From Desulfarculaceae bacterium (lineage in GTDB: Bacteria; Desulfobacterota; Desulfarculia; Desulfarculales; Desulfarculaceae), in contig JAHLKT010000007.1 in NCBI GenBank assembly GCA_020444545.1, forward strand, positions 77,001-141,000: a DNA stretch of 64,000 bases, written 5' to 3'. Numbering within the stretch: position 1 is the first letter of the stretch; every line of letters starts with the position of its first letter. Of this stretch, positions 2,454 to 11,420 are shown piece after piece. The notes beneath the pieces are model-generated. The model searched no databases. It was not told the origin of the DNA and saw nothing but the letters and a program-made list of their open reading frames with translations. A program made the translations under genes and the position numbers.

Positions 2454-3071
2454 TTACTTGCCCGCGGGCTTGAGCCCCTTCTTGCGGTAGTCGATGGCCT
2501 TGTTCAGGTCGAAGCCGTTCTTCTTCCAGTTGGCCGCCTCGGGCGGGTCGAAGCCCTGGGCCTGCCAGGCCTTGGCCTCGTTGGTGGAGAAGCCCAGGCC
2601 GTTCCATTGCTTGGCGTCCAGGGGCCCGAAACCGGCCTTGTGCCAAGCCTGGGCCAGCTGCGGGTCCGCGAAACCGTTGTCGCTCCACTGCTTGGCCTGG
2701 TGGGCGTTGAAGCCGGTGGCCGCGATCCAGGCCTGGGTCTGTTGCAGGCTGAAGCCGCCCTTTTTCCACACCGCCGCGTCCTGGGGGCTGAAGCGGGCCA
2801 GGCGCCAGTCGCGGGCCTCGCCCGGGCCGAAGCCGGCCTTGTACCAGGCCGCGATGTCCGGGCCGTCGGTGAACCCGGCGTTGGTCCAGGCCTTGGACTG
2901 GGCCGGGCTGATGCCCACCCCGCGCAGGGCGTTAGCGTACTCCGGCGAGGCGCCCACCGCCTGCCAGGCTCCCTTGTCGGTTTCGGAGAAACCATCCCAA
3001 CTGCCGGTGGTGGCGCAGGCGGCCAAAAAGGCCAGGCACAGGGCCGTCACCAGCAACAGGCTTTTATGCAT
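2454..3071 (-). CDS. Lipoprotein built of about eleven 13-residue W/GF repeats
   Basis: This 205-residue protein starts with a lipoprotein signal ending in the lipobox LAAC, so it should be membrane-anchored by about residue 19. Almost all of the mature part is a tandem array of 13-14-residue units of the form GFxxxxAxxWxxx, for example GFGPGEARDWRLA and GFSTNEAKAWQAQ, with about eleven copies. No enzyme signature is visible; short helical repeats with regular Trp and Gly-Phe suggest a superhelical binding surface. The ATG at 3071 has AAGGAGG upstream. It is the second gene of an operon, 38 bases after a secreted protein gene, and ends at a strong terminator. I do not recognise a named family. 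Confidence 0.85.
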   Translation of the reverse strand: MHKSLLLVTALCLAFLAACATTGSWDGFSETDKGAWQAVGASPEYANALRGVGISPAQSKAWTNAGFTDGPDIAAWYKAGFGPGEARDWRLARFSPQDAAVWKKGGFSLQQTQAWIAATGFNAHQAKQWSDNGFADPQLAQAWHKAGFGPLDAKQWNGLGFSTNEAKAWQAQGFDPPEAANWKKNGFDLNKAIDYRKKGLKPAGK

Positions 3072-3109
3072 CCCCAACTTGTCCTCCTTGCTTATGGCTT
3101 TCCGAATTC

Positions 3110-3607
3110 TCAATAGCTGCAAACCAGCTCCACCACGGCCTCCCCGGGCCAGGGCTCGCTCCCGGCTTCCATGATAACCGAAAAGGTGGTGTCGCCGAAG
3201 TAACCGGTATGGAGGGTCATGTCCAGGGGGTCGCCCGCCTTCTGGTTCTTGAACTCCACCTTGCTGCCCTCGCTGGTGGTCACCTTGCCGGAGTACTGGT
3301 TGGCCGGCCCCACCACCCGGGCGGTGCAGTTGAGGGTGTAGCCGAAGCAATAGGCGCTGGCGGTGTCTTTGCCCTTGCCCGCGTTCATGGGCAGGCGGAA
3401 GCGCACCTTCTTTTGCGAGCCCAAGGCCTGTTTGCTCTGCGCCTGGTCCGGGATGCCCTGGGCCTGGCGTTGAGCGTGGATGTCGTCGGCCAGGGCCTTG
3501 GTGGCCTCGTGCAAATGTCCCACCGGTTCGTTGCCGGCGGCCCGGGCCGCGCCGCCCGCCATGAGAGCCAAGGCCAGAATCGCAAGCCAGATAACCCCTC
3601 GTTTCAT
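3110..3607 (-). CDS. Secreted/periplasmic protein of unknown function
   Basis: This 165-residue protein has a classical signal peptide (MKRGVIWLAILALALMAGG) with cleavage likely after ARA near residue 23. The mature part begins with a helical, Gln/Ala-rich stretch and continues as a beta-rich domain with two Cys residues (YCFGYTLNC and a C-terminal VCSY) that could form disulfides. The ATG at 3607 is preceded by AAGGAGGAGGGA; upstream in-frame starts lack such a site. It heads the operon with the 13-residue-repeat lipoprotein, so the two may act together in the envelope. I do not recognise the family. Confidence 0.8.
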   Translation of the reverse strand: MKRGVIWLAILALALMAGGAARAAGNEPVGHLHEATKALADDIHAQRQAQGIPDQAQSKQALGSQKKVRFRLPMNAGKGKDTASAYCFGYTLNCTARVVGPANQYSGKVTTSEGSKVEFKNQKAGDPLDMTLHTGYFGDTTFSVIMEAGSEPWPGEAVVELVCSY

Positions 3608-3756
3608 GCTCCCTCCTCCTTCCATGCCGATAGACCTATTTAATATATCCAATCGGGCCTCCGACACAATCCCCAAGCTAAAGCCGCAAGCCTTTACTAT
3701 CCCCCCCCGCTTGAGTATGCTTGGGGCCACACTGGTTCAATCGGCGAGGAAGATCA
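3608..3756. promoter_or_regulatory. Divergent intergenic region with an 8-bp inverted repeat
   Basis: This gap must contain the promoters of the secreted-protein operon (minus) and of the cysteine synthase fusion (plus). A perfect inverted repeat, CCCCAAGC at 3671-3678 and GCTTGGGG at 3719-3726, flanks an AT-rich segment and could be an operator or a long-loop leader hairpin for the fusion gene. No clear -35/-10 could be assigned. Confidence 0.35.
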
Positions 3757-6078
3757 ATGAGCCCCCGTGTGGATAACATCCTGGAGCTGGTGGGCGGCAC
3801 CCCCCTGGTGCGCATCAACCGGCTCAACCACAACCCCGGCGTGACCGTCTACGCCAAGCTGGAGTTCATGAACCCCGGCGGTTCGGTGAAGGACCGCCCG
3901 GCGCTCAACATGATCGAAGAGGCCGAGCGGCGCGGCGAGCTGACCAAGGACAAGGTCCTTCTGGAGGCCACCAGCGGCAACACCGGCATCGGCCTGGCCA
4001 TGGCCTGCGCGGTCAAGGGCTACAAGATGCTCTTCACCATGGCCGAGTCCGCCTCTTTGGAGCGGCGCAAGATTCTCAAGGCCTACGGCGCGGAGATACT
4101 GCTCACCCCGGCCCACATGTCCACCGACGGGGCCATCGAGGAGGCCTACCGCCTGGCCCGCGAGGAGCCGGAGCGCTACTTCCTGGTGGACCAGTTCAAC
4201 AACGACGACAACTGGCGGGCCCACGCCGCCGAAGGCTCCACGGCCGACGAGATCTACGCCGACACCGAGGGCAAGGTGGACCTGGTGGTTTCCACCCTGG
4301 GCACCTCGGGCACGGTGATGGGCCTCACCCGACGCTTTCATCAGATAGACCCCAAGGTCAAGGTGGTGGCGGTGGAGCCCTACCAGGGCCACAAGATTCA
4401 GGGCCTCAAGAACATGAAGGAGTCCTACGCCCCGGGCATCTTCGCCCCCGGCGAGGTGGACATCCTGGTCAACGTGGACGACGACAGCGCCTACGAGATG
4501 AGCCGCCGCCTGGCCCGCGAGGAAGGCATCTTCGTGGGCATGAGCGCGGGCGCGGCCATGAAAGTGGCCCTGGACCAGGCCGCCACCCTGCCCGACGGCT
4601 CGGTGGTGGTGGCCCTTTTGCCCGACGGCGGCGAGCGCTATTTGTCCACCCCCCTGTTCAGCAGCGAAAAGGTGCCCATCCCGCTGAGGTTCTACAACAC
4701 CCTCAGCCGCGAGGTGGAGGATCTGGTCCCCACCCAGCCCGGCCGGGTGGGCATCTACGCCTGCGGCCCCTCCCTGGACGGCCCGCCGGATTTGGGCCTG
4801 GGCCGCCGCATGATCTTCGCGGACCTGGTGCGCCGCTATCTGGAGTTTAGGGGCTTCGAGGTCAAGCTGGTGATAAACATCGCCGACGTGGACGACCGCA
4901 CCATCAACCAGTGCCTCAAGGAAGGGGCGGACTGGAAACAGTTCACCGCCAAGTGGGAGCGCGTGTTCTTCGAGGACATGGCCGCCCTGGGCATGCGGCC
5001 CGCCCTGGACTACCCCAAGGCCTCCGAGCACATTAGCGAGATGGTGGACACCGCCCGCGACCTGTTGGACAAGGGCCTGGCCTACGAGAAACTCAGAAGC
5101 ATCTACTTCAACATCAGCCGCTTCGAGAAATACGGCAAGCTTTCGGGGGTGGACATCGCGGCCACCCAGTGCGACAAGCACACGGACTACGACTATTACG
5201 AGAAGGACAACCCGCGCGACTTCACCATCTTCAAGCGGGCCTCCCTGGCCGATCTGAAGGCGGGCATCTACTGGCAGACCCCCTGGGGCAACGTGCGCCC
5301 GGGCTGGCATGTGGAGTGCGCCACCATGTCCTCCAAGCACCTGGGCCAGCCCTTTGACATCCACCTGGCCTCCACGGATTTGATCTTCCCCCACGGCGAG
5401 AACGAGATCGCCGTGGCCGAGGGCCTGACCGGCAAGCCCCTGGCCAACCTTTGGATGCACTCCGAGGTGGTCATGGTCGAGGGCAAGAAGGCCTCGCGGG
5501 TGGTGGGCAACGACGTGACCATCCGCGAGATCCTGGACCAGGGCTACAGTCCGGCCGCGGTGCGCTTCTGGCTTTTGGGCCAGCACTACCGCCGCCCGCT
5601 GACCTACGACCAGGAGCAGCTGGACCAGGCGGCCAAGTCGGTGGAGCGTATCAACGACTTCGTGGCGCGGCTGAGCTTCATCAGCCCCTGCTCCCACGCC
5701 CCGGACCTGGACCAGTATCTCTACGAGCTCAAGAGCGGCATCCAGGAGGCCATGGACAATGACCTCAACGTGCCCAAGGCCATGGGACATCTCTTCACCT
5801 TCATCCGGCGCATTAACCGCCTGATGAACAGTCAGCAGATGGACGCCTCCCAGGTGGAGAAGGTGCTGGGCTTTTTGGAGCAGGCCAACCAGGTGCTGGG
5901 CATCATCGACCTGGAGCGCCCGGCCCGCGACCCCGAGATCGACGAGCTGCTCACCCGCCGCCAGGCCGCCCGCGCCTCGGGCGACTTCGCCCTGGCCGAC
6001 CAGCTCCGCGAAGAACTGGCCCAGCGCGGCATACAGGTTATCGATACGCCCAGCGGCTCCCGCTGGTGCCGCATGTAG
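3757..6078 (+). CDS. Cysteine synthase fused to a CysRS-like domain with degenerate ATP motifs
   Basis: This is a 773-residue fusion. Residues 1-305 are an O-acetylserine sulfhydrylase-type PLP enzyme with lysine K45 in GGSVKDRP, the substrate loop TSGNTG (72-77) and the phosphate-binding GTSGT (182-186). Residues 306-773 align end to end with cysteinyl-tRNA synthetase, including the anticodon-binding C-terminus. The four zinc ligands expected from E. coli CysRS (C28, C209, H234, E238) are kept as C336, C521, H546 and E550. However, the HIGH motif reads DLGL (345-348) and KMSKS reads KASRV (578-582), while HHENE reads HGENE. The domain should therefore still bind cysteine but may not activate it with ATP. 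The ATG at 3757 has AGGA six bases upstream. Likely roles (inference) are a cysteine sensor on cysteine synthase or an unusual ligase. The N-terminal activity is secure; the C-terminal one is not. Confidence 0.92.
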   Translation: MSPRVDNILELVGGTPLVRINRLNHNPGVTVYAKLEFMNPGGSVKDRPALNMIEEAERRGELTKDKVLLEATSGNTGIGLAMACAVKGYKMLFTMAESASLERRKILKAYGAEILLTPAHMSTDGAIEEAYRLAREEPERYFLVDQFNNDDNWRAHAAEGSTADEIYADTEGKVDLVVSTLGTSGTVMGLTRRFHQIDPKVKVVAVEPYQGHKIQGLKNMKESYAPGIFAPGEVDILVNVDDDSAYEMSRRLAREEGIFVGMSAGAAMKVALDQAATLPDGSVVVALLPDGGERYLSTPLFSSEKVPIPLRFYNTLSREVEDLVPTQPGRVGIYACGPSLDGPPDLGLGRRMIFADLVRRYLEFRGFEVKLVINIADVDDRTINQCLKEGADWKQFTAKWERVFFEDMAALGMRPALDYPKASEHISEMVDTARDLLDKGLAYEKLRSIYFNISRFEKYGKLSGVDIAATQCDKHTDYDYYEKDNPRDFTIFKRASLADLKAGIYWQTPWGNVRPGWHVECATMSSKHLGQPFDIHLASTDLIFPHGENEIAVAEGLTGKPLANLWMHSEVVMVEGKKASRVVGNDVTIREILDQGYSPAAVRFWLLGQHYRRPLTYDQEQLDQAAKSVERINDFVARLSFISPCSHAPDLDQYLYELKSGIQEAMDNDLNVPKAMGHLFTFIRRINRLMNSQQMDASQVEKVLGFLEQANQVLGIIDLERPARDPEIDELLTRRQAARASGDFALADQLREELAQRGIQVIDTPSGSRWCRM

Positions 6079-6279: not shown

Positions 6280-7260
6280 CTTCCTATCTCTTCTCCCCCA
6301 CCACCCCCCGCCGGGGTCGCCAAGGGGCCGGCATCTCCCCGCCCTGTGCAGGCCTGCTTCCAACCAGCCTCGCTAATATTCCTCGCCCGCAACTCCGCTT
6401 GCCCTACTCAGCGACCACGCCCCGCCAGCGAGCGCCTCTCGTTTTCCCCAGCCCTTATGCCGGCCCCGAGTGACCCCGACAAAAAAACGCTTTTTCCTTT
6501 TCTTTTTCCCTCCTCTTTTCTTCTCGCCCGCCACGCCCCGCCAGCGAGCGCCTCTCGTTTTCCCCAGCTCTTATGCCGGCCCCGCGCGACCCCGGTAAAA
6601 AACGCTTTTTCTTTTTCTTTTCTTCCTCTCTTTTCTTTGCTGCAAGCCGGAGACAACACCAACGAAGATCGCCACGGAGCGGCGGAAGACCTCTCCCTTT
6701 TCTCCCGCCGCCCGTTACCGCCGCTCCTCGCGATGACTTTCTGATTTCTGTAATTAAGAAAGCAAAAATGGAGTTTCGTGTCGGCCCTCCGGCACGCGAG
6801 AGTCTCTCGGGCGGGGATAAACCCCGCCCCTACATCGGCCCGCCTTTGCCCCAGCGGTTCGTTGCTTCTCTTTTCCCCCACCACCCCCCGCCGGGGTCGC
6901 CAAGGGGCCGGCGTCTCCTCGCCCCGCCCCAACGCCCCTCCCGCCGACCCGCCAAAAATAAAAGCAAGCGCAACTCCGCTTGCCTCTCTCCGACCGCGCC
7001 CCGCCAGCGAGCGCTCCTCATTTGCCCCATCCCTTATGCCGGCCCCGAGTGACCCCGACAAAAAAAACGCCTTTTCCTTTTCTTTTTCCCTCCTCTTTTC
7101 TTCTCGCCCTCCGCGCCCCGCCAGCGAGCGCCTCTCGTTTTCCCCAGCCCTTATGCCGGCCCCGAGTGACCCCGACAAAAAACGCTTTTCTTTTTCTTTT
7201 CTTTTCTCTTCTCCTCTTCTCCTCTCCTCTCCCTTCCCCCTTCTTCCCCCTCCCGCCAAA
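6280..7260. repeat. Composite polypyrimidine repeat cluster
   Basis: About 1 kb without a real gene. It contains four direct copies (starting near 6416, 6531, 7001 and 7111) of a unit of roughly 110-120 bases. Each has CGCCCCGCCAGCGAGCG, then TTATGCCGGCCCCGAGTGAC, then a purine-poor tract rich in TTTTC and CCTC. Two copies of a second module (CCGCCGGGGTCGCCAAGGGG) lie near 6305 and 6887. The unit at 6660-6740 also carries GCGATGAC and CGAAGATCGCCACG segments. The same modules appear in opposite orientation at 39960-40830. Open frames across this region are low-complexity and not credible as genes. Confidence 0.8.
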
Positions 7261-7328
7261 CTCCTTGCCTCTTCCCGCCCCACGGGCGAATATAGATCAA
7301 TGCTCCCCTCATGCCCGGAGAGTGCCTC

Positions 7329-7718
7329 ATGGCCGACAAAATAGCGAGACAAGCCTTGCTGCGCGCGGTGGAGGGCCTGGCCCCTTACCCGGCGATGCTC
7401 ATGCCCACCCAGGGCGGCTGGGAGGTGGTCTTTCCCAACCTGGCCCGCCTCACCGCTTGGGGCCCCAACAAGGATATGGCCTGCCACAACGGCGAGGAGG
7501 CCCTCACCCTGACCCTGGGCCAGATGATCGCCGCCGGCGACGAGCCGCCGCGCCCCAGCGACCCCGAGCGCCTGGTGCCCGACGAGGAGGAGCCCCCCGG
7601 CTCCGAGCTGATCATGCTGGAGCCCGACAAGGCGGTGCTGCGCGCCCGCCTGGGCCTCACCCAAAAGGAAAAGGGCAGCCCCCTGGGCAGCACCCTGGGC
7701 CGCCTGGGTCGCAAATAG
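7329..7718 (+). CDS. HicB-like small protein
   Basis: This 129-residue protein resembles the HicB antitoxin fold in its first 75 residues. A YPAMLMPTQGGWEVVFPNL strand pair is followed by an alpha-helical segment (NGEEALTLTLGQMIAAG) and a Pro-rich PPRPSDPERL tail, as in HicB 'partial RNase H' domains. The remaining 50 residues are acidic and then basic with no clear DNA-binding domain. No HicA-type toxin gene lies next to it, so it may be an orphan or act outside toxin-antitoxin pairing. The ATG at 7329 is preceded by GGAGAG; an in-frame ATG at 7311 is less well placed. It directly follows the repeat cluster. Confidence 0.7.
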   Translation: MADKIARQALLRAVEGLAPYPAMLMPTQGGWEVVFPNLARLTAWGPNKDMACHNGEEALTLTLGQMIAAGDEPPRPSDPERLVPDEEEPPGSELIMLEPDKAVLRARLGLTQKEKGSPLGSTLGRLGRK

Positions 7719-9233: not shown

Positions 9234-11420
9234 ATGCATGATATCGCCGGGAAAGACCTGGCCGGCTTGCCGCCGGTAAGCCAAGAGCCCTGGGTGCCCT
9301 TGCCCTCGCACAAGTGGACCGAGCCCGAGCGTTGGGTTTGGGAGCAGGTGCGAACGGGGCGAGAGGCGAATTTCAACCAGCGCTACGGCAAGGAACTTGA
9401 CCCCAAGGATGAGTCGCTTTGGGCTGAGGAGGAAAAAGAACGGAGGACGCTGCGGCCGGATTTCCTGCGCACCATTTTGCTGTGCGAGCCATGGCGGGGA
9501 CTGATCACGCATGTGGGGGTGCGGATTTTCGGGGCGTTTTTTGAGGGCGATATTGACCTGGGCCAGGCCGAAGTTGCTTGCGAGCTTTGGCTGGAGCAGT
9601 CGCGTTTTGAAGGCGGCTTGTCCGGGTGGGCGGCCCGCTTTAAATTCAACTTCAGTTTAGAAGGATCGGCGCTAGCCAAAGAACTGCATATGGATCGGGC
9701 CGTAATCACGGACAATCTCTCCCTTCGCCAGGGCCGCTTCGCCTCCGCCCGCCTCCATGGCGTGCAGGTGGGCGGGCAGCTTTCCATGACCGGCGCAGAG
9801 TTCAGCGGCGAGCTGGCTATGGATGGGGCCGAGATCAATGGCAGCCTTTTCCTGGGCAAAGGCCGCTTCGCCTCCGCTAACCTACGTGGTGTTCAAGTGG
9901 GCGGGTTAGTATCCATGGAGGAAGCGAAGTTTAGCGGCGATTTGGGCATGGACCGCGCTGTAATCAAAGGCGGCCTTTTTCTTCGCCGAGGCCGCTTCTC
10001 CTCAACCCGTTTGCTAGGTGTTCAAGTGGGCGGACAGCTTACCATGATCGGTGCGGAGGTTACTGGCACCCTGGCCATGGATCGCGCTGTAATCAAAGGC
10101 AGCCTTTTCCTGAGCCAAGGCCGGTTCGCCTCTGCCTACCTAATAGGCGTGTCTGTGGGCGGACAAGTCGGAATGGAGGAGGCGAAATTTTTAGGTGAAG
10201 TTAATCTCAAGGAAGCAATATTAGGGAGTTCAATGTATGCAGATGACATAGTTATTAAAGAAGAACTAACAATGGATTCTGCCCACATCAAAGGGGATTT
10301 TGCCTTGCGTAAAGCTCGCCTTACATCCGCCCATTTATTTGGCTTGCGAGTGGACGGAGACCTTAGTGTAAACCACGCTCGTTTTAGTGGTGAACTCGGC
10401 ATGGATGCTTCTGAAATTGGAGACAGTTTTTCACTTCGCAATGGGCGTTTCGATTCTGTACGTCTACCCGGTGTGCGTGTTGGTTTACAAATAGATATGT
10501 CGGGCGCAGGATTCTTGGGGCCGGTTAATTGCGAGGGTTTGCGTGCGGCCTCAAATTTCATTATGCTCAGAGTTCGGTTTTTCGATGAGTTGCACTTGCA
10601 CCTTTGCCGAGTTGGTGGCTCTTTGTCTTTAGCCGGTTGCCACTTGAACAAAGTGAGCCTATCCCAGGCCAAAATAACTAGCGATTTGGTCCTTTCCCAT
10701 CCTGACCAAATGAAGTCGATCTCTTGGTACAACGGCTCTATAGACCTACGGGAAACTTCGGTTGGTTCGGTGCTTGATGGTCAGGAAGATTGGCCAGAAT
10801 CTCTACGTTTAGATGGCTTTCGTTATAATAGCGTGGGTTCGCTAGAAACTATTAAAGAACAAAACGAGCGATCTCGAAATTCACAAAAATTCACCACCGC
10901 CTCCGACCGCTCTGCCTCCTGGTACGTGGGCTGGCTAGGAAAGCAAAAAGACTTTTCCATGGATCCCTACCAGCAATGCGCCAAGTTTTTGCGTGAGTCA
11001 GGACAGCCCGACAAGGCCAACGAGGTCATGTACGCCGGGATGGAGAGGGAGCGACGGCGTATGGACAAGTGGTCCCTGGCACGAGCAGGGCGTAATCTAC
11101 TCAAATGGACCATTGGTTATGGCCTGGGCTATCGATATTTTGCGGCCTTGATCTGGGCGATTCTTTTCCTCGGCATTGGTGCCGTAGTTTGCGGCGCGGC
11201 TGGCGGCGGCCCACATGGGGCGCTGTTCTGCCTTGGCTTCAGCCTGGATAACATGCTGCCTCTCATTGATCTGAGGCCCGAGCATGAAGCAATGAGCAAG
11301 GCACTCGTCGGGTCCGGCAAGTTCTACTTTCTGTTTGTCCAGCAATTGGTGGGCTGGGTGCTGGTGGTTTGTGTCGCCGCCGGCCTGGCTGGCGTGGGCA
11401 AGTTCGGCGGGCGCGACTAG
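9234..11420 (+). CDS. Beta-helix repeat protein with C-terminal membrane segments
   Basis: This 728-residue protein has a soluble N-terminal domain (residues 1-165) and then tandem 43-residue units beginning near residue 167. Each reads roughly GRFASxxLxGVQVGG, then AMDxAxIxGSLFL. Three or four units are nearly identical and two or three are diverged, up to about residue 480. The alternating hydrophobic pattern suggests a right-handed beta-helix like pentapeptide-repeat proteins. After a linker come a DPYQQCAKFLRESG helical region and two or three membrane segments at about 625-650 and 700-722. Such an architecture is seen in putative membrane-bound signalling or channel-like proteins, but I cannot name a function. 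The segment at 10190-10910 is clearly AT-richer than the rest, so the gene looks mosaic. GGGGGGAG precedes the ATG. Confidence 0.85.
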   Translation: MHDIAGKDLAGLPPVSQEPWVPLPSHKWTEPERWVWEQVRTGREANFNQRYGKELDPKDESLWAEEEKERRTLRPDFLRTILLCEPWRGLITHVGVRIFGAFFEGDIDLGQAEVACELWLEQSRFEGGLSGWAARFKFNFSLEGSALAKELHMDRAVITDNLSLRQGRFASARLHGVQVGGQLSMTGAEFSGELAMDGAEINGSLFLGKGRFASANLRGVQVGGLVSMEEAKFSGDLGMDRAVIKGGLFLRRGRFSSTRLLGVQVGGQLTMIGAEVTGTLAMDRAVIKGSLFLSQGRFASAYLIGVSVGGQVGMEEAKFLGEVNLKEAILGSSMYADDIVIKEELTMDSAHIKGDFALRKARLTSAHLFGLRVDGDLSVNHARFSGELGMDASEIGDSFSLRNGRFDSVRLPGVRVGLQIDMSGAGFLGPVNCEGLRAASNFIMLRVRFFDELHLHLCRVGGSLSLAGCHLNKVSLSQAKITSDLVLSHPDQMKSISWYNGSIDLRETSVGSVLDGQEDWPESLRLDGFRYNSVGSLETIKEQNERSRNSQKFTTASDRSASWYVGWLGKQKDFSMDPYQQCAKFLRESGQPDKANEVMYAGMERERRRMDKWSLARAGRNLLKWTIGYGLGYRYFAALIWAILFLGIGAVVCGAAGGGPHGALFCLGFSLDNMLPLIDLRPEHEAMSKALVGSGKFYFLFVQQLVGWVLVVCVAAGLAGVGKFGGRD

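Follow-up and report, generated by a model that had tools for sequence, protein, structure and literature searches.

Results

The window analyzed here is a 64,000-nucleotide stretch of a Desulfarculaceae bacterium genome (contig JAHLKT010000007.1, positions 77,001 to 141,000). On its plus strand, a gene at 3757..6078 encodes a protein of 773 amino acids, with an ATG at 3757, a stop at 6078, no internal stops, and a Shine-Dalgarno-like GAGGAAG (3746..3752) located 4 nt ahead of the ATG. This confirmed the original prediction of an intact fusion between a synthase domain and a full-length CysRS homologue, and 84 further distinct homologous sequences were found. Pfam matches in the protein comprise PALP (residues 9 to 290; 1.2e-69), tRNA-synt_1e (residues 324 to 626; 4.9e-85), DALR_2, and CysS_C (1.5e-8). 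Residues 1 to 302 (3757..4662) make up a pyridoxal phosphate (PLP)-dependent cysteine synthase domain that scored 345.8 bits against TIGR01136, above the cut-off. It is followed by a short linker (4663..4683), which measures 8 to 16 residues between the anchor columns on either side in each of the 85 members, and then by a CysRS-like domain (residues 310 to 772; 4684..6072) holding the full set of catalytic, DALR, and anticodon-binding domains, the last at residues 722 to 770 (5920..6066). The predicted structure of the fusion (pLDDT 80.5, pTM 0.55) matched the CysRS-tRNA-Cys complex 1u0b with a Z score of 46.6 (rmsd 6.8 over 438 residues), a further CysRS of bacterial origin (8qhp) with 47.8 (rmsd 2.2 over 400 residues), MshC with 42.3, and cysteine synthase B with 37.8; at a pTM of 0.55, the spatial arrangement of the synthase relative to the CysRS-like domain is uncertain.

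The neighboring genes are housekeeping ones (tmk, surE, murJ, and rlmB/gmk-type, named by eye) and gave no functional or regulatory link. Rfam elements were absent from the window, the loci of ten relatives showed tRNAs only, and a tRNA-Cys gene lay beside the fusion at 0 of 60 loci. At 11 loci (L139:8321-9298, L144, L145, and 8 more), a conserved protein of ~330 amino acids and unknown function adjoins the fusion on the same strand. Elsewhere in the window, GKKRFFFFF and SGSLGAGIRAGENERRSLAGRG recur in several frames at 6350-7340, probably as an intergenic repeat; a minus-strand open reading frame at 2454-3350 with repeated W..AGF.P..A..W units apparently encodes a repeat lipoprotein; and a 728-amino-acid protein at 9234-11420 has a hydrophobic C terminus and numerous repeats (GVQVGGQLSM) that resemble pentapeptide or bactofilin repeats.

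Full-length or nearly full-length fusions were present in 156 of 395 Desulfobacterota genomes sampled evenly across the phylum and in 3 of the 193 genomes sampled from Myxococcota, the phylum to which L070 belongs; at E 1e-110, the search gave no fusion among 77 genomes of Nitrospinota and 251 of Chloroflexota, two phyla that offered no positive control. The genomes surveyed were draft or complete, and the reach of the related-locus scan is limited to close relatives. This is an ancient fusion with a wide distribution among sulfur bacteria. No published description of it was found in the open-access literature, and the CysRS row in the paralogue table of a review names CysRS* and MshC without this fusion (PMC9437257). 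An ordinary cysS was sought elsewhere in the window's genome, and a canonical copy with both the HIGH and KMSKS motifs was found, together with a cysK-cysE pair. TIGR00435 matches a second protein in most fusion genomes, which is what a canonical cysS in addition to the fusion would produce; incomplete assemblies and divergent fusions are among the few genomes with a single match.

The unfused CysRS paralogues examined were all of other types, with no unfused form of this pseudo-CysRS among them. Some CysRS paralogues (G415:C1:2100534-2101781, G322:C6:115358-116590, and others like them) are short, at ~400 amino acids, and lack the C-terminal anticodon domain; they may be MshC-like or correspond to the CysRS* that has been reported from Desulfobacterales. 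At L223 (G115:C27) and L225 (G078:C1), the reading frame of a CysRS-like protein (motifs HIGN/HLGN and ITDVGHM) continues into what looks, by eye, like a family 2 glycosyltransferase domain.

The catalytic motifs of the synthase half are conserved in the fusions, namely, the PLP lysine, TSGNTG, GT.GT.MG, and S.GAA. The PLP lysine of the window protein, K45, lies in PGGSVKDR (residues 40 to 47; 3874..3897), and PGGS.KDR is at least 95 percent conserved in 85 sequences. The synthase half lacks the SGG.PGPHKIQGIGAGF loop of CysE-linked CysK (SGG.PGPHKIQG) and has GLKNM there instead (residues 216 to 220; 4402..4416), a signature common to CysO-linked CysM enzymes (GLKNM/GLKHM). When placed in a tree alongside 88 other cysteine synthases, the synthase half grouped with standalone CysM with moderate support (83/85), and it appears, at that level of support, to be of the CysM type, next to CysO-linked CysM. 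The CysK partner of serine acetyltransferase was rejected as its identity, the loop and clade being different and the enzyme also occurring in genomes without CysE; hence, of the predicted fusion of CysK to a CysRS-like domain, the fusion stands and the assignment to CysK does not. At the loci of GLKHM CysM from Desulfobacterota, Nitrospinota, and Chloroflexota, ThiS (CysO-like) and ThiF were present in 18 of 18 cases and JAB in 14 of 18, whereas fusion loci contained no CysO/ThiS, ThiF, or JAB genes. The CysM of Mycobacterium tuberculosis uses O-phosphoserine and CysO (PMC12910592).

Among the 22 good fusion genomes tested, 11, of which 9 are single-contig, gave no CysK/CysM match besides the fusion (E 1e-50), and none of the 11 gave a match to cysE (TIGR01172, E 1e-15). 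Altogether, cysE was absent from 12 of the 22 genomes, and the other 10 have a separate CysK. One genome without cysE, G183, carries a CysO-linked CysM in addition to the fusion. The absence of cysE is defined by a single profile, which detected cysE in all ten fusion genomes with CysE-linked CysK, and every tested genome with a CysK of that type also has a cysE match. Given that there is neither another synthase nor a cysE match, most cysteine synthase activity in those bacteria probably comes from the fusion, which cannot depend there on acetylserine from a recognizable CysE. We infer that O-phosphoserine is the most likely substrate of the fusion synthase.

Residues of the CysRS-like half were mapped on the E. 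coli CysRS of the MG1655 record. On this alignment, DLGL (residues 345 to 348; 4789..4800) stands at the HIGH position, KASRV (residues 578 to 582; 5488..5502) stands at the KMSKS position, and RTIN (residues 381 to 384) replaces the KIIK lysines, all as originally predicted. Both His residues of HIGH are present in 48 of 48 canonical CysRS. Among the 85 aligned fusions, HxGH occurs in only two (HLGH, both with RTSKA at the KMSKS position), exact KMSKS in none, and no member has HIGH and KMSKS intact together; the H40 position is taken by L, E, T, V, Q, or N. As judged from the alignment, motif loss is fixed in the fusion family, with replacement letters that vary among members, so that homologous fusions and a shared loss were found, but not a shared replacement. 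A sequencing error as the cause of the lost motifs is contradicted by the lack of KMSKS in all 85 fusions and by a loss fixed across species. The window protein scored 204.3 bits against the MshC profile (cut-off, 485.1), and its class I ATP-ligation motifs are lost; with no ATP site left, the MshC-like ligase that had also been suggested is unlikely. Against the NCBIfam cysteine-tRNA ligase equivalog TIGR00435, it reached 366.8 bits (cut-off, 340); therefore, automatic annotation would name it an active synthetase, very probably wrongly.

The fusions also carry fixed residues of their own, from which canonical CysRS mostly differ: R351 (81/85), T382 (76/85), R494 (85/85), and K501 (84/85). 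R351 is the second Arg of an RR pair (residues 350 and 351; 4804..4809) and occurs in 0 of 48 canonical CysRS. In the CysRS tree, all 85 fusion halves lay together on the same side of a branch (SH-aLRT, 99), with a long branch to the 48 canonical sequences. For nine close pairs, dN/dS was 0.07 to 0.27 in the CysRS-like half, somewhat higher than in the synthase half (0.04 to 0.21). These values indicate purifying selection on the CysRS-like half and argue against decay.

The four predicted zinc/cysteine residues were borne out by the alignment: C336 (E. coli C28; 4762..4764), C521 (C209; 5317..5319), H546 (H234; 5392..5394), and E550 (E238; 5404..5406) are conserved in 73, 76, 85, and 55 of the 85 fusions, respectively. 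Thus, the zinc site is retained and the ATP motifs are lost, as had been noted. The C-C-H triad is complete in 73 of 85 members, and C-C-H-E is complete in 53, including the window protein. In the pocket, W205 is kept in 83 of 85 and H224, with which H536 aligns as predicted, in 75 of 85. A cysteine-sensor role for this domain is possible; since the triad is incomplete in 12 of 85, cysteine sensing would not be universal. Both zinc-less fusion genomes tested for CysE have it, in a small sample (n = 2).

The E. coli anticodon contacts R423, R427, D436, and D451, the last of which we take to be a contact in the 1u0b complex, are conserved in all 83 complete members, with Lys for R427 in two. In the window protein, they correspond to R735, R739, D748, and D763, and the two relatives differ at R739. 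Seven positions of the 62-residue C-terminal domain are at least 97 percent conserved in the fusions, four of which are the anticodon contacts (hypergeometric P = 6e-5). R423, R427, and D436 are reported to contact G34 of tRNA-Cys (PMC12684709). Because canonical CysRS conserve the same residues, this conservation points to retention of tRNA-Cys reading. Moreover, the 12 triad-less members still carry the anticodon residues, which are kept more strictly (83 of 83 complete members) than the zinc triad (73 of 85); therefore, tRNA-Cys binding needs explaining besides cysteine binding. Taken together, these residues indicate that the fusions have lost the ATP site, that the tRNA site is fixed among them, and that most of them, though not all, have the cysteine site. 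The original prediction was thus partly supported, having missed the tRNA-Cys anticodon residues and the non-CysE-type synthase.

Discussion

We propose that the fusion is an acetylserine-independent, probably O-phosphoserine-using cysteine synthase joined to a pseudo-CysRS regulator that senses tRNA-Cys and, in most members, cysteine, a reading to which we give a probability of roughly 0.45. It draws on the fusion, ATP-motif loss, anticodon and zinc residues, purifying selection, and the lack of CysE in half of the fusion genomes tested, all read from sequence; tRNA binding and allosteric control are what we infer. The CysM-type PLP domain would combine sulfide, or sulfur from another donor, with an activated serine to make cysteine; this serine would not be O-acetylserine and is most likely O-phosphoserine. 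The CysRS-like domain would not activate cysteine with ATP and would still recognize tRNA-Cys via the anticodon, and in most members its Zn site could hold the thiol of cysteine. The activity of the fused synthase would then change when tRNA-Cys (in either charged or uncharged form) and cysteine bind, by which cysteine supply would be matched to translation. Such control would replace the serine acetyltransferase feedback that is missing from this route. Since the ATP site is lost and the tRNA-reading residues are kept, tRNA-Cys may directly control cysteine synthesis. HisZ offers a precedent for a dead synthetase as regulator: this HisRS paralogue lacks adenylation and controls histidine synthesis, as outlined in a review (PMC9437257). 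The fusion domain resembles HisZ, as described there, in being a synthetase paralogue without adenylation tied to the synthesis of its own amino acid; it differs in being class I, covalently joined, and in possession of an anticodon domain, and its regulatory role is a proposed one.

The HisZ precedent, together with the prevalence of the C-C-H triad, W205, and H224, could also be taken to mean that free cysteine in the Zn pocket inhibits the synthase and that the tRNA-binding part is a leftover scaffold. We consider this unlikely: a leftover part would be expected to diverge more quickly than the sensor site, whereas the anticodon contacts are stricter than the zinc ligands, even in triad-less members. 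Less likely again is a hand-off complex, in which tRNA-Cys and newly made cysteine are held beside the normal CysRS and channeled without allosteric control. Retention of the tRNA and cysteine sites, loss of the ATP site, and a short linker in all members would suit it; however, the fusion and the normal CysRS share no operon.

It is improbable that the synthase is fed with sulfide or persulfide from the zinc site, a role that the CysO thiocarboxylate plays for its relatives. The CysO/ThiF/JAB genes that adjoin GLKHM relatives and are missing at fusion loci speak for this idea, as does the reported CysRS-linked persulfide formation (PMC5660078), but the zinc triad is lost in 12 of 85 members, KIIK is not retained, and the anticodon residues would be left unexplained. 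With respect to the M. tuberculosis-type CysM, the fusion shares the CysO-linked grouping, the GLK[NH]M loop, and occurrence in CysE-less genomes; unlike it, the fusion has no nearby CysO, JAB, or ThiF and is joined to a pseudo-CysRS.

Marginally less credible is tRNA-dependent synthesis in the manner of SepRS/SepCysS, with the CysM domain turning an activated seryl-tRNA-Cys held on the pseudo-CysRS into Cys-tRNA-Cys. The joining of a tRNA-Cys site to a beta-replacement enzyme in CysE-less genomes fits this scheme, which, if true, would be a second, independent RNA-dependent route to cysteine. However, most fusion genomes show a normal CysRS, and in this family, fold-type II enzymes bind the carboxylate in its free form. 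SepRS/SepCysS likewise ties tRNA-Cys to cysteine synthesis (PMC5424206), whereas its enzymes are different ones, and for the fusion, conversion on the tRNA is hypothetical.

That the fusion is an active, unusual CysRS has a smaller chance still: its full domain set with an anticodon domain, its score above the TIGR00435 cut-off, and the two HLGH members are outweighed by HIGH and KMSKS never both being intact, the replacement of H40, and the presence of a normal cysS. The fusion has the fold, zinc site, DALR and anticodon domains, and anticodon contacts of CysS, but it has lost HIGH/KMSKS, is joined to a synthase, and coexists with a normal cysS. MshC and CysRS* are also CysRS homologues found alongside a normal CysRS. 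By contrast, MshC uses ATP, and CysRS*, in the review's account of it, lacks the anticodon domain and charges SelC* (PMC9437257); both occur without a cysteine synthase fusion. Finally, the functionless, decaying synthetase kept in view by the original prediction can practically be discarded, since the differing motif letters that might favor it are countered by the low dN/dS, a motif loss fixed across species, frames open across the phylum, and many family-specific fixed residues.

If regulation of an acetylserine-independent synthase by tRNA-Cys and cysteine is true, it would constitute a protein-level tie between tRNA-Cys and cysteine production, with a logic like that of HisZ or T-box control. 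The host phylum is rich in sulfide-producing bacteria, and the finding suggests how bacteria lacking serine acetyltransferase may make and control cysteine.
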